From a virus: a DNA stretch of 64,000 nt. This document shows positions 3-46,187 of the stretch, one piece after another. Within the stretch, counting starts at the first letter, position 1. Each line of letters begins with the position of its first letter. The notes beneath the pieces are model-generated. The model saw only the letters and a program-made list of their open reading frames with translations. It was not told the DNA's origin and made no database searches. A program made the translations under genes and the position numbers. Location of the stretch: positions 1-64,000 of the IMG/VR virus record IMGVR_UViG_3300032315_000470; one strand, given 5' to 3'.

Positions 3-974
3 GCCAATACAATGTTCTCTGGTGTTGGTTCTGCTAACAACCCATACGGTTTCCGTGGTACAACTGCAACCGACACAGGTACAAATCCTATAGTATCAGC
101 AACTTTAGCTGCTAACAGCTATACAACTGGTATTGGCATGCCAACAGCTACTGCTGAGTTCCTTGGTTCGGACAACAATGCAGCATTCCAACAGATGGCC
201 TTCTCTATCGAGAAAGTAACTGTAACTGCTCAAAGCCGTGCATTGAAAGCTGAGTACTCTTTAGAACTTGCACAAGACTTGAAAGCAATTCATGGTCTTG
301 ATGCTGAAACAGAATTGTCTAACATTCTGTCTACAGAAGTTCTCGCTGAAATTAACCGTGAAGTTATCCGTACAATCTACACCGTTGCCGTTCCAGGTGC
401 TCAGTTTGGTACAACAACAGCAGGTTTCTTTGACTTAGATACAGACTCTAACGGCCGTTGGTCAGTTGAGCGTTTCAAAGGTCTAATTTTCCAAATCGAG
501 CGTGATGCTAACGTAATTGCTAAGCAGACTCGCCGTGGAAAAGGTAATGTGTTAATCGTTTCTTCTGATGTTGCTTCTGCTATGGCAATGGCTGGTGTAT
601 TGCAATATACTCCTGCTCTCCAAGCTGACTTGCAAGTAGATGACACAGGCAACACATTTGCTGGTTTGTTACACGGTCGTATCAAGGTTTATATTGACCC
701 ATACTTCGGTGGATACACAAGCAATCAAGAACTTGTAACTGTCGGTTACAAAGGTTCTAGCCCATACGATGCTGGTTTGTTCTATTGCCCATACGTTCCA
801 TTACAGATGGTTCGTGCTATTGACCAGCAAACATTCCAACCAAAGATTGGCTTCAAGACTCGTTACGGAATGGTTGCAAACCCATTCGCAGAAGGACTTG
901 GAGTTGGTTCGGGTGGATTGAATGCTCGTACAAACCGGTATTACAGAATTTTTGGTGTCAAAAATTTAATGTGA
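3..974 (+). CDS. 23: major capsid protein gp23, C-terminal part
   Basis: The frame is already open at the left edge, so this is the C-terminal ~324 residues of a gene that starts outside the window. The methionine at base 12 is internal, not a start. The end of the protein (GFKTRYGMVANPFAEG, then NRYYRIFGVKN before the stop) matches the C-terminal pattern of T4 gp23, the shell protein of the myovirus head that forms the hexameric capsomers. Gp23 normally needs a co-chaperonin for folding, and a GroES-like gene lies at 20281. Two intrinsic terminators follow, as expected for a highly expressed late gene. The identification is firm; the N-terminal processing site cannot be seen. Confidence 0.93.
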   Translation, partial: ANTMFSGVGSANNPYGFRGTTATDTGTNPIVSATLAANSYTTGIGMPTATAEFLGSDNNAAFQQMAFSIEKVTVTAQSRALKAEYSLELAQDLKAIHGLDAETELSNILSTEVLAEINREVIRTIYTVAVPGAQFGTTTAGFFDLDTDSNGRWSVERFKGLIFQIERDANVIAKQTRRGKGNVLIVSSDVASAMAMAGVLQYTPALQADLQVDDTGNTFAGLLHGRIKVYIDPYFGGYTSNQELVTVGYKGSSPYDAGLFYCPYVPLQMVRAIDQQTFQPKIGFKTRYGMVANPFAEGLGVGSGGLNARTNRYYRIFGVKNLM

Positions 975-25617: not shown

Positions 25618-25937
25618 TGACAGAAGGTATTGATTATTGTTTCATCTATCCTAAAGATGATAATACTGCGGTAAACATTAGGTTGTTGCAAGGACCATAC
25701 AAAGACACATTATTCAAATACGGTAAGGTAAAGTTCAAAGAAGAAAATGAACAAATCTATTTACTTTTCGCCTACGATGTGTTAGAATCCACCGTAGATA
25801 CTCCTAAGAAACTGGAGAAAGATGGCAAGTTCAAAGATTACCTAGGTGATTTACTTGTCGAATTAATGTCAAATAATATTGAGCAGGAAATAGTGGATGA
25901 AACTGGAACAGACGATATTAAAAACCCTGATTTATAA
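25617..25937 (+). CDS. conserved protein between uvsX and gp41
   Basis: A 106-residue protein (IDYCFIYPKDDNTAVNIRLLQGPYKDTLFKYGKVKFKEENEQIYLLFAYDVLES). Mostly beta at the N-terminus with an acidic tail. Homologues in this position are typical of T4-like cyanophages, but I know no function. It overlaps gp41 by 41 bases, so gp41 translation probably depends on it. Confidence 0.6.
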   Translation: MTEGIDYCFIYPKDDNTAVNIRLLQGPYKDTLFKYGKVKFKEENEQIYLLFAYDVLESTVDTPKKLEKDGKFKDYLGDLLVELMSNNIEQEIVDETGTDDIKNPDL

Positions 25938-27288
25938 TGAAGAATTTCTGCGGAAAGTTTTACCATTTTTAAAGACGGAATATTTTAGTGATAGTGTAGA
26001 GAGAACTTTATTTAATGAGATTACATCGTTCACGGAAACTTATAATGCTGCGCCATCGGTTGAAGCAATTGATATTGCCGTCAAAGAAAGGCGTAATCTC
26101 ACGGATGACGAAGTTAAGAGATGTGAATCTTATCTTAAAGAAATCGAAGCTAATAGCCAAACAGAAACCAAGATTCAATGGCTTGTTGATAAAACAGAAT
26201 CGTTTTGCCAAGAGAAGGCCATATACAATGCAGTATTGGGGTCTATTTCAATTCTCGATGGCAAAGACAAAACGAATGATAAAGGTGCGATTCCCAAGAT
26301 ATTATCGGATGCTTTGGCCATTTCTTTCGACAACTCCGTAGGGCATGATTACCTAGAAAACTCAGATGAACGATATGAATTTTACCATAGAAAAGAAGAA
26401 CGAATACCCTTTGATTTGGAATATTTTAACAAAATTACAAAGGGAGGACTACCTACCAAAACCCTTAATATTGCTCTTGCTGGTACTGGCGTTGGTAAAT
26501 CTTTGTTTATGTGTCATGTTGCTGCCGGTGCTATGGTTCAAGGAAAAAATGTGTTATATATTACACTTGAAATGGCTGAAGAAAAGATTGCTGAAAGAAT
26601 AGATGCAAACTTATTGAATGTTTCACTTGATGATTTGATGGAACTACCTAAAGATTTATATGACAAGAAGGTTGCTCGTGTTCGTGAGAAATGTACCGGC
26701 AAACTTATCATTAAAGAATACCCAACCGCTTCAGCATCCGTAACACACTTCAGAACATTATTAAATGAACTCAACCTCAAAAGGTCTTTCGTACCTGACA
26801 TTATCTTTATTGATTATCTTAATATCTGTTGTTCTTCTCGTATTAAGGCTGGTGCGAATATTAACTCTTACACTTACGTTAAGTCAATCGCAGAAGAACT
26901 TAGGGGCCTTGCGGTTGAACATAATGTTCCTATTGTATCTGCTACACAGACTACAAGGAGTGGATTTACATCGAGCGATCCTGGTTTGGAAGATACGAGT
27001 GAGTCATTCGGGTTACCTGCAACCGCCGACTTAATGTTTGCTTTGATTTCTTCAGAAGAACTGGAAGAACTTGGCCAAATTATGATCAAACAATTGAAGA
27101 ATAGATATAATGATCCAACATTTCACAAACGATTCACTCTCGGGGTTGATAGAGCTAAAATGAAACTATATGATGTCGAACAATCCGCACAGACGGGTAT
27201 TGCAGATGCTGGCCATGATAAACCATTAAACACGTTTGGTACAAGAGAAGAAAAACAAAAGAAATCATTTAATGGATTTAAAGTATGA
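25897..27288 (+). CDS. 41: replicative helicase gp41 (DnaB-like)
   Basis: A 463-residue protein (T4 gp41: 475). The N-terminal domain LIYNEEFLRKVLPFLKTEYFSD is of gp41 type. Walker A is GTGVGKS (~195-201), Walker B DIIFIDYLN, then SATQTTRSG and a C-terminal arginine-finger region ending in DRAKMKLYDVEQ. It unwinds the fork 5'-3' and recruits primase gp61 (45174). The start lies deep in the preceding gene, but the N-terminal match supports it. Confidence 0.93.
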   Translation: MKLEQTILKTLIYNEEFLRKVLPFLKTEYFSDSVERTLFNEITSFTETYNAAPSVEAIDIAVKERRNLTDDEVKRCESYLKEIEANSQTETKIQWLVDKTESFCQEKAIYNAVLGSISILDGKDKTNDKGAIPKILSDALAISFDNSVGHDYLENSDERYEFYHRKEERIPFDLEYFNKITKGGLPTKTLNIALAGTGVGKSLFMCHVAAGAMVQGKNVLYITLEMAEEKIAERIDANLLNVSLDDLMELPKDLYDKKVARVREKCTGKLIIKEYPTASASVTHFRTLLNELNLKRSFVPDIIFIDYLNICCSSRIKAGANINSYTYVKSIAEELRGLAVEHNVPIVSATQTTRSGFTSSDPGLEDTSESFGLPATADLMFALISSEELEELGQIMIKQLKNRYNDPTFHKRFTLGVDRAKMKLYDVEQSAQTGIADAGHDKPLNTFGTREEKQKKSFNGFKV

Positions 27289-31501: not shown

Positions 31502-32028
31502 TGGACTTTGAAAAAGAATATCAAGATGCGTGTGTGAGGGTTACGGATATACATGAACACTTACCAGTTTTATCTGATTTAACCTCACAATGTAATTATG
31601 TAACCGAACTTGGTGTTGGTTGGGCTCAAAGCACAAGAGCATTTCTCCGTCACGATGTTACGTTACATAGTTATGAATATCTTCCGCAACCAGGAATTGT
31701 AGATTTCTTTATTCAAGCCAGAAATGCTGGTCGTAATGTTGCTTTGCATATTGCTGATACTAGAAAAGTTGAGATTGAGCCTACAGACTTATTATTTGTT
31801 GATAGTTTACACATCTACGAACAAGTGAAAACCGAATTAGAATTACACGCAGATAAAGCAAAAAAATATATTGTATTTCACGACACAACATCTTATGCCG
31901 ATAATGGTGAGTTCGGCGGCAAAGGCATTTGGCCTGCCATTCAAGAATTCATTGATTCACATTCGGAATGGCAATTGGTTGAAAGAAGAACAAATAATAA
32001 CGGACTAACAATATTAAAACGAGCATGA
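31501..32028 (+). CDS. SAM-dependent methyltransferase-like protein
   Basis: A 175-residue Rossmann protein: YVTELGVGWAQSTRAFLRH (motif I, E-L-G-V-G), LHSYEYLPQPG, LLFVDSLHIYEQVKTELELHADKAKKYIVFHDT. This is the Methyltransf_24-type layout (D-S-x-H-x-Y...H-D). It probably methylates a sugar or small acceptor within the cassette. Starts on the last base of the preceding stop. Confidence 0.68.
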   Translation: MDFEKEYQDACVRVTDIHEHLPVLSDLTSQCNYVTELGVGWAQSTRAFLRHDVTLHSYEYLPQPGIVDFFIQARNAGRNVALHIADTRKVEIEPTDLLFVDSLHIYEQVKTELELHADKAKKYIVFHDTTSYADNGEFGGKGIWPAIQEFIDSHSEWQLVERRTNNNGLTILKRA

Positions 32029-32792
32029 GTATATCTTTTTTTCATATAGCTGCATATACTAAGTCTGCTGAAGTTATTGTTGAATCGGCGAGAAAACATC
32101 ATCCAAAAGATTTTTATTTTCTTGGTGTTGATGGAGAACACGACATTGCTGAATTTGCAAAAAATAATGATTGCCATTATAAAAAGTTTACACCAATAGG
32201 ACCACCAATATATCCACAAGGTTGGAACTTAGATAGGTCATTAGAATTTTTGGACCGTTTTTACACCACCTGTCAACTATCAAAGGCATCCCACATAATT
32301 ATGATGGAAGATGATGTATTGATATTGAAACCTATTACCGTGAATCCTGAATGGGAACATGCTTGTGCTGACACAAAAGTTGGTAATATAATACCCGAAC
32401 CGGTTCACGATTTAATTGAACAACATTGTGGTAAACGGCCAACATTTAAACAATATGGTGCCGGTGGAGGTTCAATATTTAAAGTTAAAACATTTATGGA
32501 TCACTATGATACAAATATTGAATGGTTTAAAAAACATTTTGATGAAATACAATCTTATTATCCAACCATAGGTTATTTGGATTGTTTTATGAATGTCTAT
32601 TATTTTTTAGCTGGCAAAGATTATTGTGTAAATTATCGTAGAGCTGACACACATAATCATAAAGCAGGATTTGATTATGAAAAATTTATAGACAATTTAC
32701 CAAGCGATGTTGAGATTTTAAATAATTATAAAAAATATTATTTTAAAACCAATGATGAGGTTATAACATTTAACACAGAGCAACTAGTATGA
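32025..32792 (+). CDS. glycosyltransferase-like protein
   Basis: A 255-residue protein. SISFFHIAAYTKSAEVIVESARKHHP, then ASHIIMMEDDVLILKP (EDD near residue 91) as the DxD-type metal site, then GAGGGSIFKVKTFMDHY and YLDCFMNVYYF. The EDDV pattern is common in LPS-type glycosyltransferases. The gene is clearly more AT-rich in codon choice than its neighbours. Overlaps both neighbours by four bases. Confidence 0.6.
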   Translation: MSISFFHIAAYTKSAEVIVESARKHHPKDFYFLGVDGEHDIAEFAKNNDCHYKKFTPIGPPIYPQGWNLDRSLEFLDRFYTTCQLSKASHIIMMEDDVLILKPITVNPEWEHACADTKVGNIIPEPVHDLIEQHCGKRPTFKQYGAGGGSIFKVKTFMDHYDTNIEWFKKHFDEIQSYYPTIGYLDCFMNVYYFLAGKDYCVNYRRADTHNHKAGFDYEKFIDNLPSDVEILNNYKKYYFKTNDEVITFNTEQLV

Positions 32793-33586
32793 ACGACATT
32801 ACAATAGTTACTGCTTTTTTTGATATTGGTAGAGGTGATTGGACTCCAGAAAAAGGATTACCACACTATCTACAACGAACAAGTAAGACCTATTTGGAAA
32901 GATTTGGCCACTTAGCCAAGTTGGAAAATCCAATGGTTGTATATACATCTAAAGAATTTTCTGATGATATACGATTTTTAAGGCAAGATAGGCCAACCGA
33001 AATACTGATTATTGATTTCAATAATTCTTTTGAAAAACTCAAAGAAGAAGTTTCTAATGTACAAAAGAATCCAGAATATCAATCGAAAATAAATCCCATG
33101 CAAGTACGCAATCCAGAATATTGGAACGCTGATTATGTGGTAGTAAATGCTTTAAAGTCGTCCTTTGTTACAAGAGCTTTACAGAGCCAACTTATAAAAA
33201 CGGATTTGGTTGCTTGGTTAGATTTTGGTTACTGTCGTGATGCATCAACACTCAATGGTGTAAAAAAATGGAAATACAATTTTAACAAAGAGAAGATTCA
33301 TTTTTTCAATGTTAAAGATTATGTCGATGGTACATATATTCAAGATATTATTGCAAATAATGATGTACATATTACAGGCCCATGTATTGTTGCTAGTAAG
33401 GATATGTGGCCTACACTCGAAGCATTAGTTTACCATAGTATTACTGAACTAATTAAAAATGACTTGATTGATGACGACCAAACTTTGTTGTTGATGTCAT
33501 ACTTACAAAAACCTGAAATATTCGAATTACATAGAGTTTCTGGTGATGATTGGTTTGTAGCTTTTAAGGAATATAATGAAGATTAA
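32789..33586 (+). CDS. HtrL/YibB-like protein
   Basis: A 265-residue protein. It begins DITIVTAFFDIGRGDWTPEKG and has YLERFGHLAKLENPMVVYTS and LVAWLDFGYCRDA, the layout of the HtrL_YibB family (WlaTC-like), encoded in bacterial surface-polysaccharide loci and some phages. A GT-A-like fold is probable (WLDFG as a degenerate DxD). Exact activity unknown. Confidence 0.68.
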   Translation: MNDITIVTAFFDIGRGDWTPEKGLPHYLQRTSKTYLERFGHLAKLENPMVVYTSKEFSDDIRFLRQDRPTEILIIDFNNSFEKLKEEVSNVQKNPEYQSKINPMQVRNPEYWNADYVVVNALKSSFVTRALQSQLIKTDLVAWLDFGYCRDASTLNGVKKWKYNFNKEKIHFFNVKDYVDGTYIQDIIANNDVHITGPCIVASKDMWPTLEALVYHSITELIKNDLIDDDQTLLLMSYLQKPEIFELHRVSGDDWFVAFKEYNED

Positions 33587-34307
33587 AATTGATTGCACAG
33601 CCAACCTTGGCGATTTCTGTAATGCATTACCTGTAATATCTGGTATCTCAAAATATAAAAATGAAAAAATTCATCTTATCATTAGACCAGAAATGCGTAA
33701 GTTTAATGGCATCAAAGAGTTTTTAAAATATCAACCAATGATTGAAGATGTGGATTTCTCAGATGATTTACTTGTCTTTGGTGATGTCATGACAATTAGT
33801 TCATGGACTCGTATGGACCAAGAAGATTCAAATCGTCCTATTGAGACCTGTCGTTATGAAAATTGGGTAAACGATAATTACGGAATGTTATTTGAAGTTG
33901 ATGATAATTTTGAGATTCAAGTTTTCCCAATGTTTATTGATAATTTAAATGACAAAACTATTGTTGGTGATAGATGGTCTGCAAAACAAGATCCTAATGT
34001 TGATGCGAGGCGTTCTACCAATGTTATTGAGAATGGTGCAAATCTCGACCATGACAAGGTTGTATACATGGATTACTCAAAGCCACTAATGTATAATTGC
34101 AATCTTATTAAACAGAATCCCAATCCATTTATTACTACATTTACAGGTATTGGTATTATTGCTGACCTAATGAACAAAGAAACAATTGTTGGTTGGGATG
34201 AAGATATGAGGACTTGGGATGGCCATCCTGTTGAGTTTGATTTTAAACGACACTACTATGGTAATCGCAAATCAAAATTAGTTTATGTAAAAGATATTAC
34301 ACTATGA
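33576..34307 (+). CDS. GT-B-like protein, N-terminal-half type
   Basis: A 243-residue protein. KIDCTANLGDFCNALPVISGISKYKNEKIHLII is the G-D/N-x-x-x-x-L-P-x-I opening of GT9-type (heptosyltransferase-like) enzymes. The rest lacks the usual GT9 donor-binding C-terminal half. The next gene looks like the missing half. It overlaps both neighbours. Could act with the next product as a split enzyme. Confidence 0.45.
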   Translation: MKIKIDCTANLGDFCNALPVISGISKYKNEKIHLIIRPEMRKFNGIKEFLKYQPMIEDVDFSDDLLVFGDVMTISSWTRMDQEDSNRPIETCRYENWVNDNYGMLFEVDDNFEIQVFPMFIDNLNDKTIVGDRWSAKQDPNVDARRSTNVIENGANLDHDKVVYMDYSKPLMYNCNLIKQNPNPFITTFTGIGIIADLMNKETIVGWDEDMRTWDGHPVEFDFKRHYYGNRKSKLVYVKDITL

Positions 34308-35017
34308 TCATTAACATTGAACCAGGCACTTTTGGTACAATTCGTAATGGTGATATGATTGCTGTTGCGAATGTACTAGAACACATTAGAAAAACAAATA
34401 ACGATCCTACAATACAGTTTCATTTGAAACCAGGAAATGTTAGCTCAGACACACATTGTCAAACATTTTATGAGATAATGTTGAAGATGACTAACTATTT
34501 CTCCAAAGAAGAAGGTACAGAGTCTTTACCTTGGAGAAAGGTCAATGTTTGGGACTTTAGAGATATCTCTGGTGACCTGGTAAAAATACACAATGATGTC
34601 GAAATGCAGAAGAAGATTGTTATTTTTCCATTGTTTGATGCACCATACAACACATACCGAAATTGGCCAAAAGAATTATTACCACACTTGATTGAAAAGT
34701 ATAGTACCGAAGAATATAAAGATTATGAGAAAATAATCTGTAAGAAAGGTGAACCGACAGAAGGTTGCCCATTTGAAGGTTGGAGGTATTCTACCAACTT
34801 TGTTCAAAATTATTACCACATTACCACATCAGAAATCTTTATTGGTGGCGATACTGGTTCTAGCCATTTTGCTTGGGCTCTTGACAAAGGACCTAAAGAC
34901 CTGATATACTATAACTCCAGTAGGGGACTGATACATACTCTACCATTTTACCTATTGCAGGGAAAAGGTAGAATGACAAACTATTGGTTGGATTTTGAAA
35001 ATACAAAATGGAATTAA
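34304..35017 (+). CDS. GT-B-like protein, C-terminal-half type
   Basis: A 237-residue protein. The C-terminal part EIFIGGDTGSSHFAWALDKGPKDLIYYNSS matches the GT9 donor-site pattern (G-x-D-T/S-G-x-x-H-x-A-x-A). The N-terminal part (IINIEPGTFGTIRNGDMIAVANVLEH) looks like a Rossmann half. Last gene of the sugar cassette. A gene-free stretch of 124 bases with late promoters follows. Confidence 0.5.
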   Translation: MIINIEPGTFGTIRNGDMIAVANVLEHIRKTNNDPTIQFHLKPGNVSSDTHCQTFYEIMLKMTNYFSKEEGTESLPWRKVNVWDFRDISGDLVKIHNDVEMQKKIVIFPLFDAPYNTYRNWPKELLPHLIEKYSTEEYKDYEKIICKKGEPTEGCPFEGWRYSTNFVQNYYHITTSEIFIGGDTGSSHFAWALDKGPKDLIYYNSSRGLIHTLPFYLLQGKGRMTNYWLDFENTKWN

Positions 35018-35071: not shown

Positions 35072-35096
35072 TATAAATCCAAAAGTTGTATAAATA
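35072..35096 (+). promoter_or_regulatory. tandem late promoters
   Basis: TATAAATC (35072-35079) and a perfect TATAAATA (35089-35096) in the 124-base intergenic space before the internal-head-protein cluster. The second is 46 bases before the ATG. Confidence 0.7.
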
Positions 35097-35141
35097 AGCG
35101 AACGGCAACCAAAGTGTGTTGCAAATCTAGTAAGGAAATCA

Positions 35142-36332
35142 ATGTTATCATTTAAGTCATTCTTAAAAGAAGAATCTGAGACCGGTTCTGAACTTAAACA
35201 CATTCATCATGCCGAAGATAGACCTTTAATGCATGGTCATTCTGGTTTTGAACACGCTCATGCAGCTTTGATGAAAGCTCATGCACACATGACCGGTGGA
35301 CATAAAAGTACCAATTTGACAATGAAATATGATGGTTCACCATCCATTGTTTTTGGCCATCATCCTAAGAATAATAAATTCTTTGTTGCAACCAAATCGG
35401 CTTTCAATAAGAATCCAAAGATTAATCACACAGAAGCCGATATTGATAGAAATCATGGCCATGCACCAGGATTAGCAAAAACACTCAAACACGCTCTCAA
35501 ACATCTACCAAAAGTAACACCCAAACAAGGAGTGTTTCAAGGCGACTTGATGCACCATGCAGATACCAAAACACTACACGAAGGTTATCTAGCAGAAGCT
35601 AAAGGTGATGTTTCTTTCACACCAAATACCATCACATATACCGCTAAAGGTAAAGAAGCTGACAAGATTAAAAAGTCTAAAGTTGGGGTTGTGGTTCACA
35701 CCCAATATAGTCACGACTTGAAACACAATACACCCCATGTAGATACCAGTAAATTTAAAGAGCATCCAGATGTACACATTCATGGTGCTGAACATGACAC
35801 AAGTAAAGTTAAACACTCGGCAGAGAACGAGAAACACTTCCAGAAACATATGGCGGCCGCCAAAGAAATTCATGACACACATGGTCACAAAATGTATGAT
35901 TCTATACACAAAAATCATAGTGGAGAAGCTGGCCACCTATCGACATACATAAACAAGACAGTAAGACACGATGAAGTGCCTAGTGTAAAAGGTTTTAAAG
36001 AACACTTACATGATGTTCATTCTAAAATGGCTGCAAAAGTTAAAACTGATAAATCGAAATCAGAAAAAACAAAACAGGGAGAGTCTGAAATCTCTCATGT
36101 TGAAAAACACAAAGCACATTATGGAAACTTATTGTCAATGCATCACCATTTACACCAAGCCAAAAACGCTTTGGTTAAATCATTAGAAACACATGAGGGA
36201 CATTACCAACACCATATTGAAGGTAAAAAGTCTAAACCTGAAGGTTTCGTAGTTCATCACGACAGTCAACCAACCAAATTGGTTAACCGTGCTGAATTTG
36301 CTAAACAAAATTTATTAAAAGTTAGAAAATGA
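35142..36332 (+). CDS. ligase-like nucleotidyltransferase, putative internal head protein (DUF6267-like)
   Basis: A 396-residue His/Lys-rich protein. The N-terminal peptide MLSFKSFLKE (L8-K9-E10) matches the capsid-targeting peptide of T4 internal proteins. Motifs in the order of covalent nucleotidyltransferases are MKYDGSPS (motif I, Lys62-x-Asp-Gly), VFQGDLM (Gly134-Asp-Leu), EGFVV (motif IV, Glu367) and KLV (motif V, Lys379). I associate this type with the DUF6267 phage family. The inference is a nucleic-acid or RNA-ligase-type enzyme carried in the head. Lys62 would be the adenylated residue. Driven by late promoters at 35072-35096. It overlaps the next gene by four bases. Confidence 0.55.
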   Translation: MLSFKSFLKEESETGSELKHIHHAEDRPLMHGHSGFEHAHAALMKAHAHMTGGHKSTNLTMKYDGSPSIVFGHHPKNNKFFVATKSAFNKNPKINHTEADIDRNHGHAPGLAKTLKHALKHLPKVTPKQGVFQGDLMHHADTKTLHEGYLAEAKGDVSFTPNTITYTAKGKEADKIKKSKVGVVVHTQYSHDLKHNTPHVDTSKFKEHPDVHIHGAEHDTSKVKHSAENEKHFQKHMAAAKEIHDTHGHKMYDSIHKNHSGEAGHLSTYINKTVRHDEVPSVKGFKEHLHDVHSKMAAKVKTDKSKSEKTKQGESEISHVEKHKAHYGNLLSMHHHLHQAKNALVKSLETHEGHYQHHIEGKKSKPEGFVVHHDSQPTKLVNRAEFAKQNLLKVRK

Positions 36333-38314
36333 AATCTTTTTTAGAGTTAGTCGAAGAAACAAAACAAGGCGAAAAACACCATGTAATGACCTTTGGTCGG
36401 ATGAATCCACCAACCACAGGTCATTTAAAGTTAATCGACAAAGTAAAAGAAGTCGCCGATAAAAATAAAGCCAGTCATTCTGTTGTGGTTTCTCACTCAC
36501 AAGATTCTAAGAAGAATCCACTATCTGGTGAAACCAAAGTCAAACATCTTAAAAGATATTCTCCAGGTACTCATATTGAATCATCCTCAAAAGAACATCC
36601 AACATTCTTACACCACGCAGAAAAGTTACACAAAGCTGGCGTCACCCATTTACACATGGTAGTTGGTTCTGACCGTGTTAAAGAAATGAAAGAAAAACTT
36701 AACCAGTATAATGGCACACATAAAGGTGCATTATACAACTTTAAGAAAATTACTGTACACTCAGCAGGTCATCGTGATCCTGATGCAGAAGGTTCTGAAG
36801 GTATGTCAGGCACCAAAATGCGTAGTCATGCGGCTTCAGGTAATTATAAAGAGTTTAAAAAAGGCGTTCCTGGTCATGTTGCCGACCACCATGCAAAAGA
36901 ACTCTATCATGATACACGCAAAGGTATGGGAATACACGAAAATATCAATCGTGGACTATTCAAGGCTATCTTTGTTACTGGTGGTCCAGGTTCGGGTAAA
37001 GATGTTATCATTCGTGAAGCCATTGCAGAATCAAGAGCAGTAGAATTGAATGCTACGCAAGCCTTTGATTACCTTGCGGATAAACAAAAACTTGCAGAAA
37101 AAACAAGTGATTTCCGTAGAGAATCTATCAGAAACCGTGGTCCTCTAATTATCAATGGACCAGCAGATAACATTGATAAGATTAACCATATTAAAGAAGA
37201 ACTGGAAGAATTAGGTTATTCCACAATGATGGTGTTTGTCAATACAACAAACGAAATTAGTCAAGAAAGAAACACCAAACTGTCTAGGATGATGGTCGAA
37301 TCGATTAGATATGACAAGTGGTCACAATCTCAGAAAAACAAAAGACTTTTTTCAGAATCTTTTGGTGATTTTATACAAATTGACAATACTGGTTCATTGG
37401 AATCAATTGAACAAGATATCACAAATACCTACATAAATATAAATGCATTTATAGAAAATAAATCCTATAATGAAGTATCATTATCATGGCTCGAAAACCA
37501 CGGTAAGTTAAATATAGGTGATAAACTCGATATTATTAAGGAAGAAAGAAATGTTCAAAGCGCTAATAAATTTATTCAGATCAAAACCAATCGTGGACTC
37601 AAAGCCGCCGGTCTCGGCAGTATCCCAGCCGACAATCGTGCAGGAGACCCCAACGCAGACGACATCAAGTGGGACGCACCAAAAAGAACAAAAACCTACA
37701 CGTTCCGAACCTACAGCGAAGAAAGCAAGCCCACGCTCACGATCAACCCAGTCCCAAAAGAAGCCAACTTCTCCAAAGACAAAGAAAAAGTAAAGAATAA
37801 AAAACGATATTCGGATGCCCCAACAGTAAGTCAAAGACTACGAAACACCACGGGTGTGGGGCCAGAATTCGATACACGCCAGCAGGGAACAGTATATCCC
37901 ATGTCCGGTCTTGGCGATGTAACATACAGAGAACAAAAAGAATTTAATAGTTTTAGAAAAACAATTAAAGAATACAAAGGATTTCAGAATGATACTTCCA
38001 TATCGGATATGGGAGTAGGTGGTGTTCTGAACGGTGCGACAAATTTTGAGCCCATGCAGTCTTATAAAGATGCAGAACGAAATATTGGTGTGGCTATTAC
38101 CAAAAAGAAAAAACCTGTAAAAGAAGATGCGGTGAGTAAGTTAGAAACTGGTTTAACTAAGTTACAGAAAACCGATTATGACACTATTGATAAGTTGATG
38201 ACAAGAATCTCTAAAGATGAGAAAACAACAGGTAAAGATTTACATGACGATTTTGTAAAAAAACACGGTAAGGTACCGGACAATTGGATAAAAGACAAAA
38301 AACAGGAGAAATAA
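36329..38314 (+). CDS. nucleotidyltransferase-kinase fusion, putative internal head protein
   Basis: A 661-residue protein with three parts. After an N-terminal MKSFLELVEE targeting-like peptide, residues ~18-170 form an HIGH-type nucleotidyltransferase: MTFGRMNPPTTGHLKLI and, later, MSGTKMRSHA (the S-x-T-K-x-R motif). Residues ~213-370 are a P-loop kinase-like domain (VTGGPGSGKDVIIREAI). The C-terminal ~290 residues are low-complexity with conserved blocks such as DAPTVSQRLRNTTGVGPEF. It resembles NMN adenylyltransferase fused to a nucleoside or ribosylnicotinamide-type kinase. A polynucleotide kinase role beside the ligase-like protein is an alternative. A second gene is nested at 37551. 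Confidence 0.62.
   Translation: MKSFLELVEETKQGEKHHVMTFGRMNPPTTGHLKLIDKVKEVADKNKASHSVVVSHSQDSKKNPLSGETKVKHLKRYSPGTHIESSSKEHPTFLHHAEKLHKAGVTHLHMVVGSDRVKEMKEKLNQYNGTHKGALYNFKKITVHSAGHRDPDAEGSEGMSGTKMRSHAASGNYKEFKKGVPGHVADHHAKELYHDTRKGMGIHENINRGLFKAIFVTGGPGSGKDVIIREAIAESRAVELNATQAFDYLADKQKLAEKTSDFRRESIRNRGPLIINGPADNIDKINHIKEELEELGYSTMMVFVNTTNEISQERNTKLSRMMVESIRYDKWSQSQKNKRLFSESFGDFIQIDNTGSLESIEQDITNTYININAFIENKSYNEVSLSWLENHGKLNIGDKLDIIKEERNVQSANKFIQIKTNRGLKAAGLGSIPADNRAGDPNADDIKWDAPKRTKTYTFRTYSEESKPTLTINPVPKEANFSKDKEKVKNKKRYSDAPTVSQRLRNTTGVGPEFDTRQQGTVYPMSGLGDVTYREQKEFNSFRKTIKEYKGFQNDTSISDMGVGGVLNGATNFEPMQSYKDAERNIGVAITKKKKPVKEDAVSKLETGLTKLQKTDYDTIDKLMTRISKDEKTTGKDLHDDFVKKHGKVPDNWIKDKKQEK
37551..37793 (+). 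CDS. overlapping-frame small protein (candidate)
   Basis: An 80-residue protein in the +1 frame inside the previous gene: amphipathic start MFKALINLFRSKP, then a Pro/Thr/Ser stretch (TPTQTTSSGT), then a Lys/Ser tail (RSTQSQKKPTSPKTKKK). AAGGA lies eight bases before its ATG. Over the same bases (about 37590-37760) the GC content is visibly higher than around it, as expected where two frames are constrained. Lacks a signal peptide or lipobox, so it is not a spanin. Confidence 0.4.
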   Translation: MFKALINLFRSKPIVDSKPPVSAVSQPTIVQETPTQTTSSGTHQKEQKPTRSEPTAKKASPRSRSTQSQKKPTSPKTKKK

Positions 38315-38315
38315 A

Positions 38316-39680
38316 ATGTTTGTCAATAAGTTAAAGATGGATAAAATTGCTGAAGCAGTTAAAAAGTGTATGGACGAAGCCGACTTGGAAGAAACGGGTC
38401 TACGCAAAGCCGCCTATGCTGCTCACACCAAAGGCGAAAAAATGTTTTCGTTTAAAGGCAAAACATATCCTGTTAAAGTTCAAGGCGAAGAAGTTTCATA
38501 TGGTAAAGAGATAAAAGAAGCTTCTTGTGAAGATGAAGTAAAAAAACATGAAAAAAGATTACATGGCAAAGATGGCGAAGTCAGTAAGCATGTAGATAAG
38601 ATGCACAAAGAAGAATTATCGCCAAAACAAAAGAAGATTGCTAAACTCAATCATCCAAAAGATGAAATTGATGCTGGTGATTTGGCCAAATTACGTGGTG
38701 AAGAAACTGAATTAGACGAAGCTGAAAAAGTGGCGACTGCTACAGGTATGAAAGTTTATGGTTCTTCTTATGGTGATTCAGCGAGAGCTCGCCGTGATCA
38801 AGTTAAGAAAGAAATTGATACAATCAAAGGTCCTACAACTAAACAACTAGTTGGTGTTGAAAAAGAAAAAGTTAAGAAAGAAGAATTCTTCAAAGATAAA
38901 TTAATCTCTAATTACATTGAAGAAGAATCTTTATTCGAAGATGAACTACAAGAAGTTCTTTCTAAAGATGCAACTGCTGGTGATTGGATTAGTGATTTTG
39001 TTCATTCAGATAATCCTAAGTTTGAAGGTAAATCTAAAAAGATGCGTCAAAAGATGGCACTTGCAGCCTACTATGCAAAAAAGAATGAATCGGTAGATGA
39101 TAGTTATCCTGTAACAACAGACACCGTTGCTGGCCGTATGCCAGGTGGAGTGTCAAATACCTTCAAACAATTCAAAGTGAAAGTTTCAGCTAAAGATAAA
39201 GAAGCGGCTGAAACAAAAAATACAATTCCAAACTCCGATCCAATGAACTTGACTGCTCGTGACCCACATGTTGGCCATGGTGGTTTGGTATCGATTCCTC
39301 CAGCAGGTGTTGTTCGTAAAGAAGAAGTTGAATTGGATGAAGCAACTCCACCAAAGAATACAGATGTTGCAGATAAATCTTACTTGAAAGATATGGGTAA
39401 AAAACCTACTGTTAAATCTGATCTGAAAAACTTCAAAAACTTTTTAACTGGTAAAAAAGAAACAAACGAAGGTAAACAACCAGAAACAGATAATGTTCCT
39501 TTTGTAACAAATGCAGACCAACCTCCTTTTGATGGTCCATACAAAAAAATTGATAAAACAACAACCGATAAATCTGGTGCGAAACACACACCAATGAGCC
39601 GTGCAAAAGATTTGGCTCAATCAGCAATGAAACGTGTTAAAACAGAAATGCTGGGTAAGGCTCCTGGTAATAACGGTTAA
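38316..39680 (+). CDS. putative processed internal head / scaffold-associated protein
   Basis: A 454-residue lysine- and glutamate-rich protein. The N-terminal MDKIAEAVKKCMDEADLEE is followed by AYAAHTKGEKMFSFKGKTYPVK, a short conserved unit. Repeated acidic linkers (EETELDEAEK, KEEVELDEAT) fit the [L/I]-x-E cleavage rule of the T4 prohead protease gp21 at LDE. Another unit, DWISDFVHSDNPKFEGKSKKMRQKMALAAYYAKK, resembles a short helical domain found in such phage proteins. AGGAG precedes the ATG. No enzymatic motif seen. Confidence 0.5.
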   Translation: MFVNKLKMDKIAEAVKKCMDEADLEETGLRKAAYAAHTKGEKMFSFKGKTYPVKVQGEEVSYGKEIKEASCEDEVKKHEKRLHGKDGEVSKHVDKMHKEELSPKQKKIAKLNHPKDEIDAGDLAKLRGEETELDEAEKVATATGMKVYGSSYGDSARARRDQVKKEIDTIKGPTTKQLVGVEKEKVKKEEFFKDKLISNYIEEESLFEDELQEVLSKDATAGDWISDFVHSDNPKFEGKSKKMRQKMALAAYYAKKNESVDDSYPVTTDTVAGRMPGGVSNTFKQFKVKVSAKDKEAAETKNTIPNSDPMNLTARDPHVGHGGLVSIPPAGVVRKEEVELDEATPPKNTDVADKSYLKDMGKKPTVKSDLKNFKNFLTGKKETNEGKQPETDNVPFVTNADQPPFDGPYKKIDKTTTDKSGAKHTPMSRAKDLAQSAMKRVKTEMLGKAPGNNG

Positions 39681-39688
39681 GGTACAAG

Positions 39689-41086
39689 ATGAGTTTATCT
39701 AAAAAACTGAAGATGATTATTAAAGGTGAACCAAAGCCCACCTTTGGCACCGATCCTAACGAACCATGGTCAGTTCGTGCAGGTATCACGGAAGGTGAGG
39801 CTGGATTTTTATCTTCTTATTTAAAGTCGAGGGGAATTAATCCTGAATTTGTAAGTAGAGATACAAAAATTTCACATGCCAAATCGGCTGAATTTTTCAA
39901 GTGGAAAAGAGACCATAGATTTGATGATCCAGCAGATACCGTATCTTCTGTTACAAGGGATAAAATGAAAGCCCAAAGAGAAGAAGTGCAGGTCGATGAA
40001 GCCAAAACTATTCAAGGCACGGCTTTAGATAAGTTTCGTCAGGCTGCAGCAGAAAGAGCAAGAAAACACGATGACATCGAAAGAGAAATGAAAGCTCGTC
40101 ATGCTGCTGGTAAAGAAGATATGAAAGGTTCTATCGACCGTTTAGAAAAACAATTGAACAAAGAAGAATCTGGCATCAGCAAAGCAAAAGAAACCTCATT
40201 TCATAAAAAATTGGATACTTTAGTTCATAACACCTTTGGTAAAAGAAAAGATGAATTGAAAATGAAAGAAGAAGTTGAATTGAAGGAAGTTAAAAATTAT
40301 CCATTTAGTTATCGTGCAACATATCATGATCCTGATACGAATAAAATTACTCATATGATGGATTTTAAACATAAAAGCTTAGATGCAGCTAAAAAACATG
40401 CAGAAGGTTCTAGACTGCAACGTAGAGATGGTAAAGAAGATATCCTTCATTCGGTCGTTCAAGTTAAAGAAGAAGTTGAACAGGTTGATGAAATTTCGAA
40501 ATCAACATTAGATTCATATAAAGATAAATCTTCAGCCAGCCTTAAAAATGCTAAGATAAACCGGGATGCAGCAGAACCAGGTAAAAATATGTCTAAAGCA
40601 TTCGCTGATTTGCATGCCAAGTCCAATGCAATTGCCAAGAAGCGTGTAAAAGGTCTGATGGGTTATCTTCAACGCAAACAAGGTGTAAAACCTATGGGTG
40701 AAGATGTCTATCAAGATCCACAAGCAGCAACTCAGACAGCCTTTGATATGGGAACTCAAGCTGATGACAGAGAACCCACCTATTCTCGTAAAAAAGAAAT
40801 GTCCAAGTCTGCTCGGATGATTAAATCTTTGTATAAGAAACACAAGATGGTGAAAGAAGAACTTTACGATCACGAAAAAGAAGATAAGTCCGTATCAACC
40901 TATGGTAAGAAACCAAAGGTCGAAAAGGTACAAGATGATGGTGACGAAAATAACCAAGCATCTATGGTGTTAAAAGGTGGCAAGACACTAACGGGTCAAA
41001 CTAGAGATACCCTCGAAATTGATCCTGTAATGAGAAAACCATCAAGTCCTGATAACAAAAACAGCAGTACGAAAACAGATAAATAA
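39689..41086 (+). CDS. putative processed internal head / scaffold-associated protein
   Basis: A 465-residue charged helical protein with the same linker family: REEVQVDEAK, KEEVELKEVK, KEEVEQVDEIS. Between them lie small units, including SFHKKLDTLVHNTFGKRKDE, YRATYHDPDTNKITHMMDFKHKSLDAAKKHAEGS and KSTLDSYKDKSSASLKNAKINRDA. The modular layout of short units joined by acidic cleavable linkers suggests that it is cut into peptides during head maturation. No N-terminal targeting peptide like its neighbours (MSLSKKLKMIIKGE). Confidence 0.45.
   Translation: MSLSKKLKMIIKGEPKPTFGTDPNEPWSVRAGITEGEAGFLSSYLKSRGINPEFVSRDTKISHAKSAEFFKWKRDHRFDDPADTVSSVTRDKMKAQREEVQVDEAKTIQGTALDKFRQAAAERARKHDDIEREMKARHAAGKEDMKGSIDRLEKQLNKEESGISKAKETSFHKKLDTLVHNTFGKRKDELKMKEEVELKEVKNYPFSYRATYHDPDTNKITHMMDFKHKSLDAAKKHAEGSRLQRRDGKEDILHSVVQVKEEVEQVDEISKSTLDSYKDKSSASLKNAKINRDAAEPGKNMSKAFADLHAKSNAIAKKRVKGLMGYLQRKQGVKPMGEDVYQDPQAATQTAFDMGTQADDREPTYSRKKEMSKSARMIKSLYKKHKMVKEELYDHEKEDKSVSTYGKKPKVEKVQDDGDENNQASMVLKGGKTLTGQTRDTLEIDPVMRKPSSPDNKNSSTKTDK
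41078..41085 (+). promoter_or_regulatory. late-type promoter GATAAATA
   Basis: GATAAATA overlaps the stop codon of the preceding gene, 32 bases before the structural gene at 41117. Confidence 0.45.
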
Positions 41087-41116
41087 ACACAACCAAAGGT
41101 TAACAAGGAGAAAAAG

Positions 41117-41740
41117 ATGTCATTATTTTGGGGCAATACAGACCGTGCTAATAGCGAACCGCTACTTCCAGAGAATAGAGAAGTTCGTGAGGTAGCCGTA
41201 TTAATAACCGCCAATGCAACTGCACTTGGCACCAATGAAATTATATTTACAACCAGTCCAGCTGCAGCAGGTGTTGCAAATGGAATGTATGTTTATGCAA
41301 CCGCAAATAACGGATTATCAAGATTCTTTGATGGATCTATTATTGATGAAGATGATATTGCTTTCAAACGCAGTAACAATAGTGTTGCAGTATTAAGAAC
41401 AGGTACAGCAAATGTTCGTGTTCAGTTTGCAAACAATACGATTGCACCAATTGGTGCTGGCCAAACCATTTATTTTGCTACAGCTGTTAATCATGGCACA
41501 AATGCAGCTTCACGGTTTGCCAACGATACAATCTTGGTAACAAGCACTCGTTTAGCAAATGCTTTAATTGCTGGTGCAAACTCTGGTATTCATCAAGGAT
41601 GGAATCGTTTTACATATAAAATGAATAATGATGGTACAAAACGTCAACTAAGAGAAACATTAATTGTTCTTGCTAATCCAACTGCATTGAACGTAAGTTC
41701 TGGCAATACAAGCACAAACTCTGTGTTCCGAGGCGTTTAA
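41117..41740 (+). CDS. phage structural protein, beta-rich
   Basis: A 207-residue protein rich in Ala, Asn, Thr and beta strands. Begins MSLFWGNTDRANSEPLLPENREV. The C-terminal HQGWNRFTYKMNNDGTKRQLRETLIVLANP is a pattern (H-x-G-W...G-R...E-T-L-V-x-x) of a family of virion proteins in T4-like cyanophages. Probably a decoration, neck or fibre-associated protein. AAGGAG before the ATG and a strong terminator after it mark a single-gene late unit. Confidence 0.6.
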   Translation: MSLFWGNTDRANSEPLLPENREVREVAVLITANATALGTNEIIFTTSPAAAGVANGMYVYATANNGLSRFFDGSIIDEDDIAFKRSNNSVAVLRTGTANVRVQFANNTIAPIGAGQTIYFATAVNHGTNAASRFANDTILVTSTRLANALIAGANSGIHQGWNRFTYKMNNDGTKRQLRETLIVLANPTALNVSSGNTSTNSVFRGV

Positions 41741-41752
41741 TTTTTTAATATA

Positions 41753-41795
41753 AGAAAATGGGTATTCTATCCCCAGAATATCCTTTTCTTTTTTT
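41753..41795 (+). terminator. intrinsic terminator
   Basis: GGTATTCT pairs with AGAATA-CC (one bulge) around ATCCCC, extended by AGAAAA/TTTTCT, followed by a long T-run. Confidence 0.82.
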
Positions 41796-41806
41796 ATGTG
41801 TAAAAA

Positions 41807-42193
41807 ATGATTGATGATTTGAATGACGACAATTTTATGATATATGCAGTTAAGTGCTATAATGCACCACATTGTATTATGTCCGAATTCGAAAGTGATA
41901 TCAAACGAACAAAGTATTTAAAGAGGTTGTTTCGTAGGTATAAAATTACAAAATCTCTTAAAGAGAGATTGATATTGAATCATATTATTTTATTGAATAA
42001 TGTTTTTGGTCCAGAACACACGGCAAGAATATTGTTCTATAAAATAGACGAAAGAGATTATGATATTTTGAAAACTTTTTTGTCTTATCTGAATATAGTT
42101 CCCGAAATGGTTTATGGAGTTAGAGGTAAAAACATTCCGGTTGCAGAAATTCCAATAGATAATAATATCGCAGAGATACTTAAACGAATATGA
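41807..42193 (+). CDS. conserved T4-like phage protein
   Basis: A 128-residue helical protein. NDDNFMIYAVKCYNAPHCIMSEFESDIKRTKYLKRLFRRY, then SLKERLILNHIILLNNVFG and FLSYLNIVPE, make up a family I recognise from T4-like cyanophage late regions (DUF7207-type). Function unknown. A four-base overlap couples it to the next gene. Confidence 0.6.
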   Translation: MIDDLNDDNFMIYAVKCYNAPHCIMSEFESDIKRTKYLKRLFRRYKITKSLKERLILNHIILLNNVFGPEHTARILFYKIDERDYDILKTFLSYLNIVPEMVYGVRGKNIPVAEIPIDNNIAEILKRI

Positions 42194-42510
42194 AAACATT
42201 TAAACAGTTCCTAGAAGAAGATTACTTGGATGAAAAATCTCCAGCATGGCAGCGATCTGCCGGCAAAAATCCAGAAGGCGGTTTAAATCGTAAAGGTATC
42301 GCATCTTACCGCAGAGAAAATCCTGGTTCTAAATTGTCTATGGCTGTTACAACAAAACCATCCAAATTAAAACCTGGTTCTAAATCAGCAAATCGTAGAA
42401 AATCATTTTGTGCTCGTATGGGTGGCATGAAGAAAAGATTAACTTCAGCTAAAACAGCGAATGATCCGGATAGCCGTATCAATAAAGCATTAAGAAAGTG
42501 GAATTGCTGA
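42190..42510 (+). CDS. DUF6321-like basic protein with head-targeting peptide
   Basis: A 106-residue strongly basic protein. MKTFKQFLEE matches, residue for residue in layout, the T4 internal-protein targeting peptide MKTYQEFIAE. A second possible cut, YLDE, follows at residue 15. The body SPAWQRSAGKNPEGGLNRKG, then KPSKLKPGSKSANRRKSFCARMGGMKKRL and DPDSRINKALRKWNC, is the DUF6321 pattern. Probably a DNA-associated internal head protein. Confidence 0.68.
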   Translation: MKTFKQFLEEDYLDEKSPAWQRSAGKNPEGGLNRKGIASYRRENPGSKLSMAVTTKPSKLKPGSKSANRRKSFCARMGGMKKRLTSAKTANDPDSRINKALRKWNC

Positions 42511-43184
42511 TGAAATCATTTAAACAATATCTTGGTGAAGATTTAAGACAATGGTTTAAACAAAAGTGGGTTCGCATGGACACCAAAGGTAATATTAAAG
42601 GCGACTGTGCAAGAGAACCAGGTGAAGGTAAACCAAAGTGTTTACCCCAAGCAAAAGCTCATGCAATTGGTAAAGAAGCTCGTGCTTCTGCTGCTCAAAG
42701 AAAGCGTAGAGAGGATCCTAATCCAGAACGCCGTGGTGCGCCAATCAATGTAAAGACAGAAGAAGTCGATGAAGCCTGTTGGGATGGATATACAGCCAAA
42801 GGTTTAAAGAAAAAAGGCAATCGCATGGTGCCTAATTGTGTACCAGAGGAAGTTGAATCTATTGATGAAAAGAATGTACCAACAAGTCCAGAAAAGTGGG
42901 CTCGTGCTAAGGCGGCCGCCAAATCCAAATTTGCAGTATATCCATCCGCATATGCAAATGGATGGGCATCGAAAAAATATAAAGCTATGGGTGGTGGATG
43001 GAGAACCGAAGAAACAGTTAGTGAAGATGGCGCAATGGGTGGTTCTGCTGGTCCAACTAATGTGGTCGGCACTGGTGCAATTGCCGGAACAGGCGGTAAA
43101 GGCGGTGAACCAGGAGTTTATCTGCCAAGAAGAAAAAAGAGTGCCGTATTGATGAATATGATTAAAAGAAAGGCAACACAGTAA
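42510..43184 (+). CDS. DUF5872-like basic protein with head-targeting peptide
   Basis: About 224 residues. Begins MKSFKQYLGED (L-G-E at 8-10). RQWFKQKWVRMDTKGNIKGDCARE with KPKCLPQAKAHAIGKEARASAAQRKRREDPNP is the DUF5872 pattern. Acidic linkers (TEEVDEACWDG, PEEVESIDEKN) separate it from KKKGNRMVPNCV and PEKWARAKAAAKSKF...YPSAYANGWASKKYK, units widespread in phage internal proteins. The ATG at 42510 shares its A with the preceding stop. Leads directly into the lysis genes. Confidence 0.65.
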   Translation: MKSFKQYLGEDLRQWFKQKWVRMDTKGNIKGDCAREPGEGKPKCLPQAKAHAIGKEARASAAQRKRREDPNPERRGAPINVKTEEVDEACWDGYTAKGLKKKGNRMVPNCVPEEVESIDEKNVPTSPEKWARAKAAAKSKFAVYPSAYANGWASKKYKAMGGGWRTEETVSEDGAMGGSAGPTNVVGTGAIAGTGGKGGEPGVYLPRRKKSAVLMNMIKRKATQ

Positions 43185-45173: not shown

Positions 45174-46187
45174 ATGAGTGTCTTTATAGACAGAACTTTC
45201 CTACTCCGCATTTCACCAAAACTACAAAGGTTTTCTCAAAAGAAAGACGACCTTTATAATTTTCGGTGCCCCTTGTGTGGAGATTCTCAAAAGAATAAAA
45301 CAAAATGTCGTGGTTACATTTTTCGAAAGAAGAATGACTACTTCTACATGTGCCATAACTGTGGCGCATCCTGTTCTTTTTATAACTTTTTAGATAGAGT
45401 TGATCCTACACTCATTAAAGAATATTCACTTGAAAGATATAAAAATGGAGACAATAACAAATCCAACCATAGTGAGCCAAATTTCGAGGAGTATAAGTCG
45501 CCAGCGCCCATCTTCAAAAAGGCCTTGGAACTTCCTACAATTGACTCATTACCAGAGGCGCATTTTGCTAAGAACTATGTTCAGCAAAGACGGATTTCGA
45601 AAACCTTTTACTCGCAACTATACTTTGCGGAAGATTTCGCAGCCTTCATACAAGGTCTTGGGATTGAAAAAGAGGGACTTCACAAAAATGACCAACGCCT
45701 CGTTATTCCGTTCTACGATAAAGAAAAGAATCTTGTTGCAATACAGGGGAGAGCGTTAGGAGAATCTAAATTAAGATATATCACTATCAAGTTACATGAT
45801 GATAACCATAAAGTCTTTGGTGCTGATAGGATAGACGAGGACAAGACGATATATGTGGTGGAAGGTCCTATTGACAGCCTGTTCTTAGACAATGCTGTTG
45901 CTACGGCAGACAGTAACTTGGAATCAATCACATCTATATACGACAAGAGTAAAGTAGTATTGGTATTTGATAATGAACCTCGCAATAAAGAAATCATTAA
46001 AAAAATTGATGATGCGATAGAAAAACATTATCATGTAGTGATTTGGCCAGAAATGATTGAAACTAAAGACATTAACGATATGATACTGGATGGATTCTCA
46101 CCAGATGAAATCCAAGACATTATAAGTAAATGCACATTCGTTAATTTGAGAGCAAAAGCAGAACTTGTGAATTGGAAAAAAGTATAA
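45174..46187 (+). CDS. 61: DNA primase gp61 (DnaG type)
   Basis: A 337-residue protein. Zinc finger CPLC (32-35) and CHNC (60-63), then a TOPRIM core: LVIPFYDKEKNLVAIQGRAL, ADRIDEDKTIYVVEGPIDSLFLDNA (catalytic Glu), KVVLVFDNEPRNKE (D-x-D equivalent). Makes RNA primers for the lagging strand with helicase gp41. In this phage it lies far from gp41, after the lysis genes. Confidence 0.9.
   Translation: MSVFIDRTFLLRISPKLQRFSQKKDDLYNFRCPLCGDSQKNKTKCRGYIFRKKNDYFYMCHNCGASCSFYNFLDRVDPTLIKEYSLERYKNGDNNKSNHSEPNFEEYKSPAPIFKKALELPTIDSLPEAHFAKNYVQQRRISKTFYSQLYFAEDFAAFIQGLGIEKEGLHKNDQRLVIPFYDKEKNLVAIQGRALGESKLRYITIKLHDDNHKVFGADRIDEDKTIYVVEGPIDSLFLDNAVATADSNLESITSIYDKSKVVLVFDNEPRNKEIIKKIDDAIEKHYHVVIWPEMIETKDINDMILDGFSPDEIQDIISKCTFVNLRAKAELVNWKKV

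Follow-up and report, generated by a model that had tools for sequence, protein, structure and literature searches.

A cluster of genes in the IMG/VR virus record IMGVR_UViG_3300032315_000470 raises the question of why proteins with different bodies begin with nearly the same ten residues, and what such a shared peptide would be for. The window considered here takes in the leading 64,000 nucleotides of a virus fragment of 71.7 kb from an uncultured phage; the features of the cluster, its landmark genes and its control elements all lie on the plus strand. Four genes start with the peptides MLSFKSFLKE (35142..35171, DUF6267 protein), MKSFLELVEE (36329..36358, a protein with NMNAT-like and kinase domains), MKTFKQFLEE (from 42190, DUF6321 protein) and MKSFKQYLGE (from 42510, DUF5872-like protein). 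Very likely, the cluster is a module for the internal head proteins of a T4-like aquatic phage, with T4-type capsid targeting, cleavage by the prohead protease gp21 and an injected enzyme cargo. The predicted head targeting of the tagged proteins is well supported. Tagged relatives of one enzyme were found in phage particles by mass spectrometry, and it is therefore very probable that a small kit of enzymes is injected together with the phage DNA.

The strict form of the T4 rule, M..[FY]..[FYL][LI].E, asks for an aromatic residue at position 4 and an aromatic residue or Leu at position 7, followed by the L/I-x-E of positions 8 to 10. It is found at 3 of the 91 gene starts of the window, all within the cluster, where 0.02 would be expected from the frequency of the motif elsewhere in the same window proteins. 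A relaxed rule, which MKSFLELVEE matches, selects 5 of the 91 starts against 0.15 expected. Hydrophobic or aromatic residues occupy positions 4 and 7 in all four proteins. The gp21 site, L/I8 with E10, is exact in three of the four, as the earlier note had claimed and as the translations of the open reading frames (ORFs) bear out, with the cut of the DUF6267 tag predicted after E10; MKSFLELVEE has L7-x-E9 and V8-x-E10. The coordinates, ORFs and peptides given in that note are correct, and only its description of the four N-termini as near-identical is slightly generous, as the fourth peptide deviates. Its statement that T4 internal proteins start with MKTYQEFIAE is seen in the fetched sequences of ipII and ipIII (MKTYQEFIAE/A, the slash marking the cut), while ipI reads MKTFKEF. 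Sites of the same type occur in T4 gp23 (FLTE/A), gp22 (LIAE/A), gp24 (LLRE/S) and Alt (LFDE/D). On all features for which the comparison gave a clear result, the peptide is a T4 capsid-targeting sequence.

The conservation of the peptide was followed in relatives of the DUF6267 protein, of which 80 near and 80 diverse ones were fetched. Among their 118 complete distinct N-termini, 105 follow the strict rule and 11 the relaxed one, and [LIVFM]xE lies within residues 6-14 in 116. In a less redundant set of 86 sequences (39-100% identity), picked for having E10, residues 1, 4, 7, 8 and 10 have an entropy of 0-0.6 bit, against 1.7-2.5 bits at 2, 3, 5, 6 and 9; residues 11-18 vary as well, and the entropy is high again from residue 12 onward. 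F4 is present in 82 sequences, F/Y7 in 85, L/I8 in 85 and E10 in 86. The alignment of N-termini across relatives, which the earlier note had proposed as a check, thus shows residues 1, 4, 7, 8 and 10 kept and the intervening ones variable. Mutagenesis of T4 IPIII assigned targeting mainly to residues 4 and 7 and processing to residues 8 and 10 (PMC9026906), and the apparent selection pattern of the DUF6267 tag agrees with this mutational map position by position.

Alternatively, the N-terminal similarity could come from shared leader ancestry, from a constraint on translation initiation, or from a helix that serves in a membrane or in assembly and has nothing to do with the head. The starts of genes 36329, 42190 and 42510 overlap the preceding stop codons, which places a slight constraint on their first codons; at the last of them, a mechanical ORF caller picks GTG 42498, and it is ATG 42510 that overlaps the upstream stop. 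However, the codons of the DUF6267 tag change synonymously across relatives, and residues 4, 7, 8 and 10 are fixed despite such codon change, while 2, 3, 5, 6 and 9 vary freely. The same pattern is seen again in the NMNATs of cyanophage virions, and an origin unrelated to the head is hardly credible.

The peptide also behaves as a portable element. In NMNAT relatives of the MKSF type, M1-F4 is invariant, followed by [LIV]7 and [VLI]8, with E10 in 44 of 46. In the slot of the DUF5872-like gene, the same peptide is followed in different relatives by differing bodies (DLRQWFKQKW, ACWTGYTAKG, VKKPTGDLKK or KNVPTSPEKW), and in all it precedes bodies as unrelated as DLRQWF, CWTGY, NVPTSPEKW, DUF6321, DUF6267, NMNAT and a HAD-type protein. 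The latter, MKSFKDYLIEESKGSLHVFDVDDTLFHT, lies in a distant locus (L144), and its label rests on a DxDxT-type motif, because a Pfam search gave no significant family. In several loci, DUF6267 and NMNAT form a single fused protein with one tag. The cultured phage Melnitz encodes a DUF6267 protein with a tag-like start, MLTLINFSKYITE; by comparison, DUF6267 is untagged in P-HM2, S-SZBM1 and S-SM1, so the tag is an added element. It is separable from the folded body, being of low confidence or disordered in both protein models and portable across bodies. A scan of the whole contig of a 235.8 kb relative by the strict rule finds DUF6267 only; the NMNAT of this relative starts with MKSFLELSEE. Many distant relatives (L103, L108, L110, L111, L113, L120 and others) also carry a second, divergent NMNAT paralogue with a tag-like start, MKDYKQLLKE/LPSKT or similar.

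The strongest evidence lies outside the window, in the tagged virion NMNATs of cyanophages. NMNAT/cytidylyltransferase was detected by virion mass spectrometry in S-SM1 (PMC3037559), S-SCSM1 (PMC9602691), S-SZBM1 (PMC9146016) and S-CREM2 (PMC10665884), and all four compared proteins are tagged: MKKFSAFLNE/A in S-SM1, MKSFLQFLKE/A in S-SCSM1, MRFRQFIIE/A in S-SZBM1 and MKNFSSFLTE/A in S-CREM2. S-CBWM1 is likewise among the phages with a reported virion NMNAT/cytidylyltransferase, outside the four N-termini compared. Such proteins have been reported in cyanophage virions since 2010, and the accessible text of the same four papers does not mention a tag. The claim of the earlier note that no such set had been described is therefore overtaken as far as the virion enzyme is concerned, and holds for its tag within that text. 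The record of S-SCSM1 labels the module ORFs 89-93, 95 and 97 as virion proteins, together with the mosaic ORF29, which closes in DUF6321; a scan of the annotated genes of this phage with the strict motif yields just two, the NMNAT and a small ORF that was not detected. Where identities are listed, the cyanophage NMNATs share about 39-44% with the window protein over the common domain, which makes the relatives with virion data distant ones. As a separate observation, the virion-detected ORF156 of S-CREM2 (L252:5013-5726) contains, by eye, the motif GG..YSDIDLHLVV of Pol-beta-type nucleotidyltransferases.

The presence of enzymes in virions also bears on the possibility that the tag serves docking on the prohead core or scaffold only, and that the proteins act in assembly like T4 gp67/gp68 and are expelled rather than injected. 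The basic mosaic proteins of the cluster, whose net charge is near +4 per 100 residues, resemble proteins of the core or proteins that condense DNA, and similar L/I-x-E sites are present in the T4 core proteins. Homologues of the enzyme nevertheless remain in purified virions (PMC3037559), and two of the four tagged proteins carry conserved catalytic motifs. A role limited to assembly is improbable.

Several findings weigh against the head-cargo reading. All virion mass spectrometry comes from relatives and none from the phage of the window. None of the virion data that were found shows DUF6267 in a particle, and none of them concerns a tagged form; the untagged S-SZBM1_141 is missing from the virion list, although the adjacent proteins 139 and 140 are included. 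ORF30 of S-SCSM1 begins with a tag-like peptide and is undetected in virions, and the tag is lacking in some NMNAT relatives (P-HM2 and 13 of 74 in the N-terminus comparison). In the accessible text, the authors of the S-SCSM1 and S-CREM2 studies allow that the enzyme may be carried over from the lysate (PMC9602691, PMC10665884). The same portions of the virion papers report no mapped neo-N-terminus, and for this reason cleavage is a step that we infer. Finally, a search for gp21 on the 71.7 kb fragment found none.

The absence of gp21 can be explained by the start of the fragment, whose left end falls inside gene 23; the remainder of this major capsid protein gene occupies 12..974 (phrog_138, E 4e-118). 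As genes 21 and 22 adjoin gene 23 in relatives, both are expected just beyond the left end of the window. Of the 12 contigs of relatives that were searched, 8 encode Peptidase_S77, the family of gp21, and the N-termini of the relatives' gp21 (YLAE/D, YITE/G and YLTE/) and gp23 (VLNE/T) contain the same L/I-x-E.

The expression of the module provides a further parallel. A T4-type late promoter, TATAAATA, lies at 35089..35096 and precedes the start codon of DUF6267 by 45 nt; late promoters of this type have been described for T4 and cyanophages (PMC2984593). Of 117 DUF6267 loci, 70 have this box in the 120 nt that precede the gene, for the most part at 44-46 nt from the ATG, vs 112 of 1300 ORF starts. 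In the window overall the motif is not enriched, with six copies on the plus strand (at or below the expectation estimated from base composition) and none on the minus strand; therefore, only its conserved position is counted as evidence. The strand bias itself agrees with the plus-strand direction of the genes. Between the promoter and the start codon, the 5' untranslated region contains a predicted hairpin, GCAAC-N8-GTTGC (35105..35122). Its stem is kept as GCAAC/GTTGC in 52 loci and appears as GCAAT/ATTGC in 11, GTAGC/GCTAC in 2 and GTAAC/GTTAC in 1; these variants of the putative stem are compensatory changes, and the hairpin could possibly exert translational control over the packaged enzymes. 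Taken together, the residue pattern, its conservation and portability, the protease of relatives, the late promoter and the tagged homologues in virions uphold the proposal of the earlier note that the peptide directs head targeting and gp21 processing.

The following course of events is proposed. Late transcription from the promoter at 35089 would yield the tagged proteins alongside the head proteins, and the peptide would use its aromatic residues 4 and 7 to dock the cargo on the prohead core. The prohead protease gp21 would then cut after E10 at L/I-x-E and free the cargo among the packaged DNA, and the freed cargo would be injected with the DNA at infection. Such a cargo would comprise a NadR-like NMNAT with a P-loop kinase, DUF6267 with ligase-type motifs and the small basic DUF6321/DUF5872 mosaic proteins. 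We infer docking, cleavage and injection for the phage of the window, as well as the packaging of DUF6267; cleavage and injection are drawn by analogy with T4.

What would such enzymes do? The gene at 36329..38314 encodes a protein of 661 amino acids (aa) with an NMNAT-like (HxGH) nucleotidyltransferase domain (PF01467), a P-loop kinase domain and a long C-terminal tail. Both the HxGH-type motif of NMNATs and an SxTxxR-like motif are present in this family; P27, P28, T29, G31 and H32 (PPTxGH) and S160, K163, M164 and R165 are invariant in 33 sequences, and the P-loop GGPGSGK (218-224) is at least 90% conserved. The kinase domain alone matches Zeta_toxin at 25.2 bits, above the Pfam cut-off, and a relative of the kinase matches Zeta_toxin/AAA_33. 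The protein model is of moderate quality, with a predicted local distance difference test score (pLDDT) of 79, below 50 in residues 1-13, and a predicted template modelling score (pTM) of 0.56. Foldseek aligns it with NadR (6gyf, E 1e-7) across both domains, with a low global template modelling score of 0.28, and the second domain also matches many nucleotide kinases. On the strength of this model, NadR-like appears to be the best label. Like NadR (NMN adenylyltransferase and ribosylnicotinamide kinase), the protein combines both folds in the same domain order; unlike NadR, to which it has 12-14% identity, it carries a phage tag and a long tail, and the best Pfam match of its kinase is Zeta_toxin. 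The heads of myoviruses were argued to carry enzymes of nicotinamide adenine dinucleotide (NAD) or ADP-ribose chemistry often, and phages to encode NadR (PMC9503650), an argument that makes a packaged NadR-like enzyme plausible, without proof.

The DUF6267 protein (35142..36332, 396 aa; PF19782, E 1e-95) is a ligase-like nucleotidyltransferase candidate. Residues K62, D64, G65, K85, Q133, D135, E367, G368 and K379 are invariant in 47 sequences, and we assign them to putative ligase motifs: K62xDG (motif I), K85, QGD, EG and K379. The model (pLDDT 87, pTM 0.85, residues 8-18 disordered) has no Foldseek match in the Protein Data Bank (PDB) at E 0.001, and a profile search against PDB sequences and Pfam returned no ligase. 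The top Foldseek probabilities outside the DUF6267 family include RNA ligases (0.20 for 6n0v, 0.20 for 4xrp and 0.30 for a viral T4 RNA ligase) and DNA ligases, none of them significant. Alignment by hhalign to T4 Rnl1, Rnl2 and DNA ligase, run with reversed and unrelated controls, gave probabilities below 1%; the best local alignments to Rnl1/Rnl2 fall on motifs I and IV, and are weak, with the PNK control scoring equal to Rnl1. With T4 RNA ligases 1 and 2 the protein has in common KxDG and the order of the putative motifs I, Ia, III, IV and V; unlike them, it has a helical insert of about 120 residues and QGD in place of the GE-type motif III, and its similarity is not significant. DUF6267 is probably a member of the ligase-type nucleotidyltransferases. 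Of the enzyme labels proposed in the earlier note, 'nucleotidyltransferase-kinase' holds for 36329, with an HxGH nucleotidyltransferase and a P-loop kinase, while 'ligase-like' is borne by motifs only, the fold and profile searches being non-significant.

These features could point to the repair of RNA or nucleic-acid ends by DUF6267, the P-loop kinase and the HAD-type proteins of relatives, directed against host nucleases that cut tRNA or nick. The invariant KxDG, K85, QGD, EG and K379, the ligases among the highest Foldseek probabilities, the local matches to motifs I and IV, the tagged HAD-type protein in L144 and the Zeta_toxin/AAA_33 match of the kinase relative agree with such a role. 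However, no ligase score is significant and the PNK control equalled Rnl1, the 661-aa protein matches NadR across both domains, and the fusion of DUF6267 to NMNAT in many relatives ties it to NMNAT chemistry. End repair is less likely than not, and no test favours the role in RNA or nucleotide repair put forward by the earlier note over NAD salvage. The restoration of NAD or nucleotides at time zero is favoured over RNA repair, though at somewhat less than even chances, and what these two leave falls to a structural or unknown function. More broadly, aquatic T4-like phages might possess an injected kit behind a constant tag, swapped cargo by cargo and acting before phage gene expression against NAD-depleting or nucleic-acid-cutting defences. 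Its members would be the NAD- or nucleotide-restoring NadR-like enzyme, DUF6267 as a new ligase-like branch of covalent nucleotidyltransferases and the HAD-type protein of relatives; this combined view is offered tentatively.

The remaining proteins of the module are small or mosaic. A Lys/Glu-rich mosaic of small repeated modules, untagged, is encoded at 38316..39680, and its family has modules in common with S-SCSM1 virion proteins, e.g., ORF92; a second mosaic protein, recognized by module analysis, follows at 39689..41086. The small protein at 41117..41740 has the same slot and a similar WGNxD start as the virion protein ORF95 of S-SCSM1, and an untagged DUF7207 protein (41807..42193; PF23837, E 5e-36) is a conserved neighbour. 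The tagged genes at 42190..42510 and 42510..43184 encode a small Lys/Arg-rich DUF6321 protein (PF19846, E 5e-19) and a DUF5872-like mosaic protein. Of these two family names, given in the earlier note, DUF6321 stands, while the DUF5872 match (PF19197) is below the Pfam cut-off, 23.8 vs 27.5 bits. The mosaic proteins have a net charge of about +4 per 100 residues, and the small basic DUF6321/DUF5872 mosaic proteins probably bind DNA. The proteins in 38316-41086 and their relatives (L003-L173) are mosaics of modules of 20-60 aa, e.g., DWIHDFVHSDNPKF, ELKGNQHKIDANHNNKID and NVPTSPEKWARAKAAAKSKF, reshuffled between phages with acidic linkers between them, and their counterparts in S-SCSM1 are found in the virion. 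Proteins 38316, 39689 and 42510 may be polyproteins, cut by gp21 at internal L/I-x-E into many small basic peptides. At the module boundaries, [LIVMF]xE is enriched 1.77-1.88x, vs 1.05-1.24 for [AGSTNQ]xE; however, reversing the motif also gives an enrichment (1.24 and 1.77), and as a whole the linkers are acidic. A polyprotein is somewhat less likely than not. In distant relatives, a Dps/ferritin-like protein is located in the same module (L156:10235-10660, PF00210, E 2e-23; L144:11766; L165:10138).

The tagged cluster is placed between the gp41 DnaB-like helicase on the left (25897..27288; phrog_19, E 5e-132) and the gp61 primase on the right (45174..46187; phrog_47, E 1e-78), and related genes occupy the gp41-gp61 slot in P-HM2, HTVC008M, S-SZBM1, S-SCSM1, S-SM1 and Melnitz. 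A near-identity DNA search among phages gave no match. Directly upstream of the cluster, the genes at 29949-35017 have, by eye, a sugar-transfer or modification look, with one weak Glyco_transf_9 match (34304); this block is absent from the slots of P-HM2 and HTVC008M. A small protein at 52955-53326, starting with MHEKEKIIIVTGEFDPLDIEG, resembles by eye RfaE/HldE-type nucleotidyltransferases. The proteins at 9930-11195 (E 3e-26) and 27285-28394 (E 6e-131) both match phrog_19197, an unknown family, and are apparently paralogues.

NMNATs in virions are already known. As far as the open literature shows, the new elements are the link between the tag and the virion NMNATs, the tagged DUF6267, the exchange of bodies that follow the tag, and the rule as a means of prediction; in the open-access literature, no paper was found that links capsid targeting with the internal enzymes of cyanophages, and none that names DUF6267 or DUF6321. 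The rule accounts for a metabolic enzyme that recurs in cyanophage virion proteomes and that authors could not separate from contamination, and it predicts the head cargo of uncultured phages from sequence alone. Through it, the internal-protein system known from T4 among the phages of E. coli also takes in abundant aquatic phages, in which enzymes are the cargo. If these enzymes act at injection, the restoration of NAD or nucleic acids would be a counter-defence at time zero.

Four more known systems can be set beside the module. T4 IPI, IPII and IPIII have in common with it the ten N-terminal residues, the aromatic residues at 4/7, L/I-x-E at 8-10, the late promoter and a gp21-type protease in the group; unlike them, the window has enzymes and mosaic basic proteins as cargo, the resemblance lies in the tag only, and cleavage here is predicted. 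T4 Alt, the head-packaged ADP-ribosyltransferase, is an enzyme of NAD chemistry that is packaged in the head and trimmed by gp21, as proposed for the NadR-like protein; however, Alt consumes NAD, whereas the NadR-like protein would make it, and the enzyme families are unrelated. The ejection proteins of phiKZ and SPN3US belong to systems in which many head proteins are trimmed after Glu by a relative of gp21 (PMC9026906), with S/A-x-E as the differing cleavage motif in phiKZ. The virion NMNAT/cytidylyltransferase of cyanophages (T4-GC190) has a homologous first domain and the same tag, is present in particles and is encoded in the gp41-gp61 region in three of four phages, whereas the window protein has a P-loop kinase in addition and stands next to a DUF6267 protein that also bears the tag.

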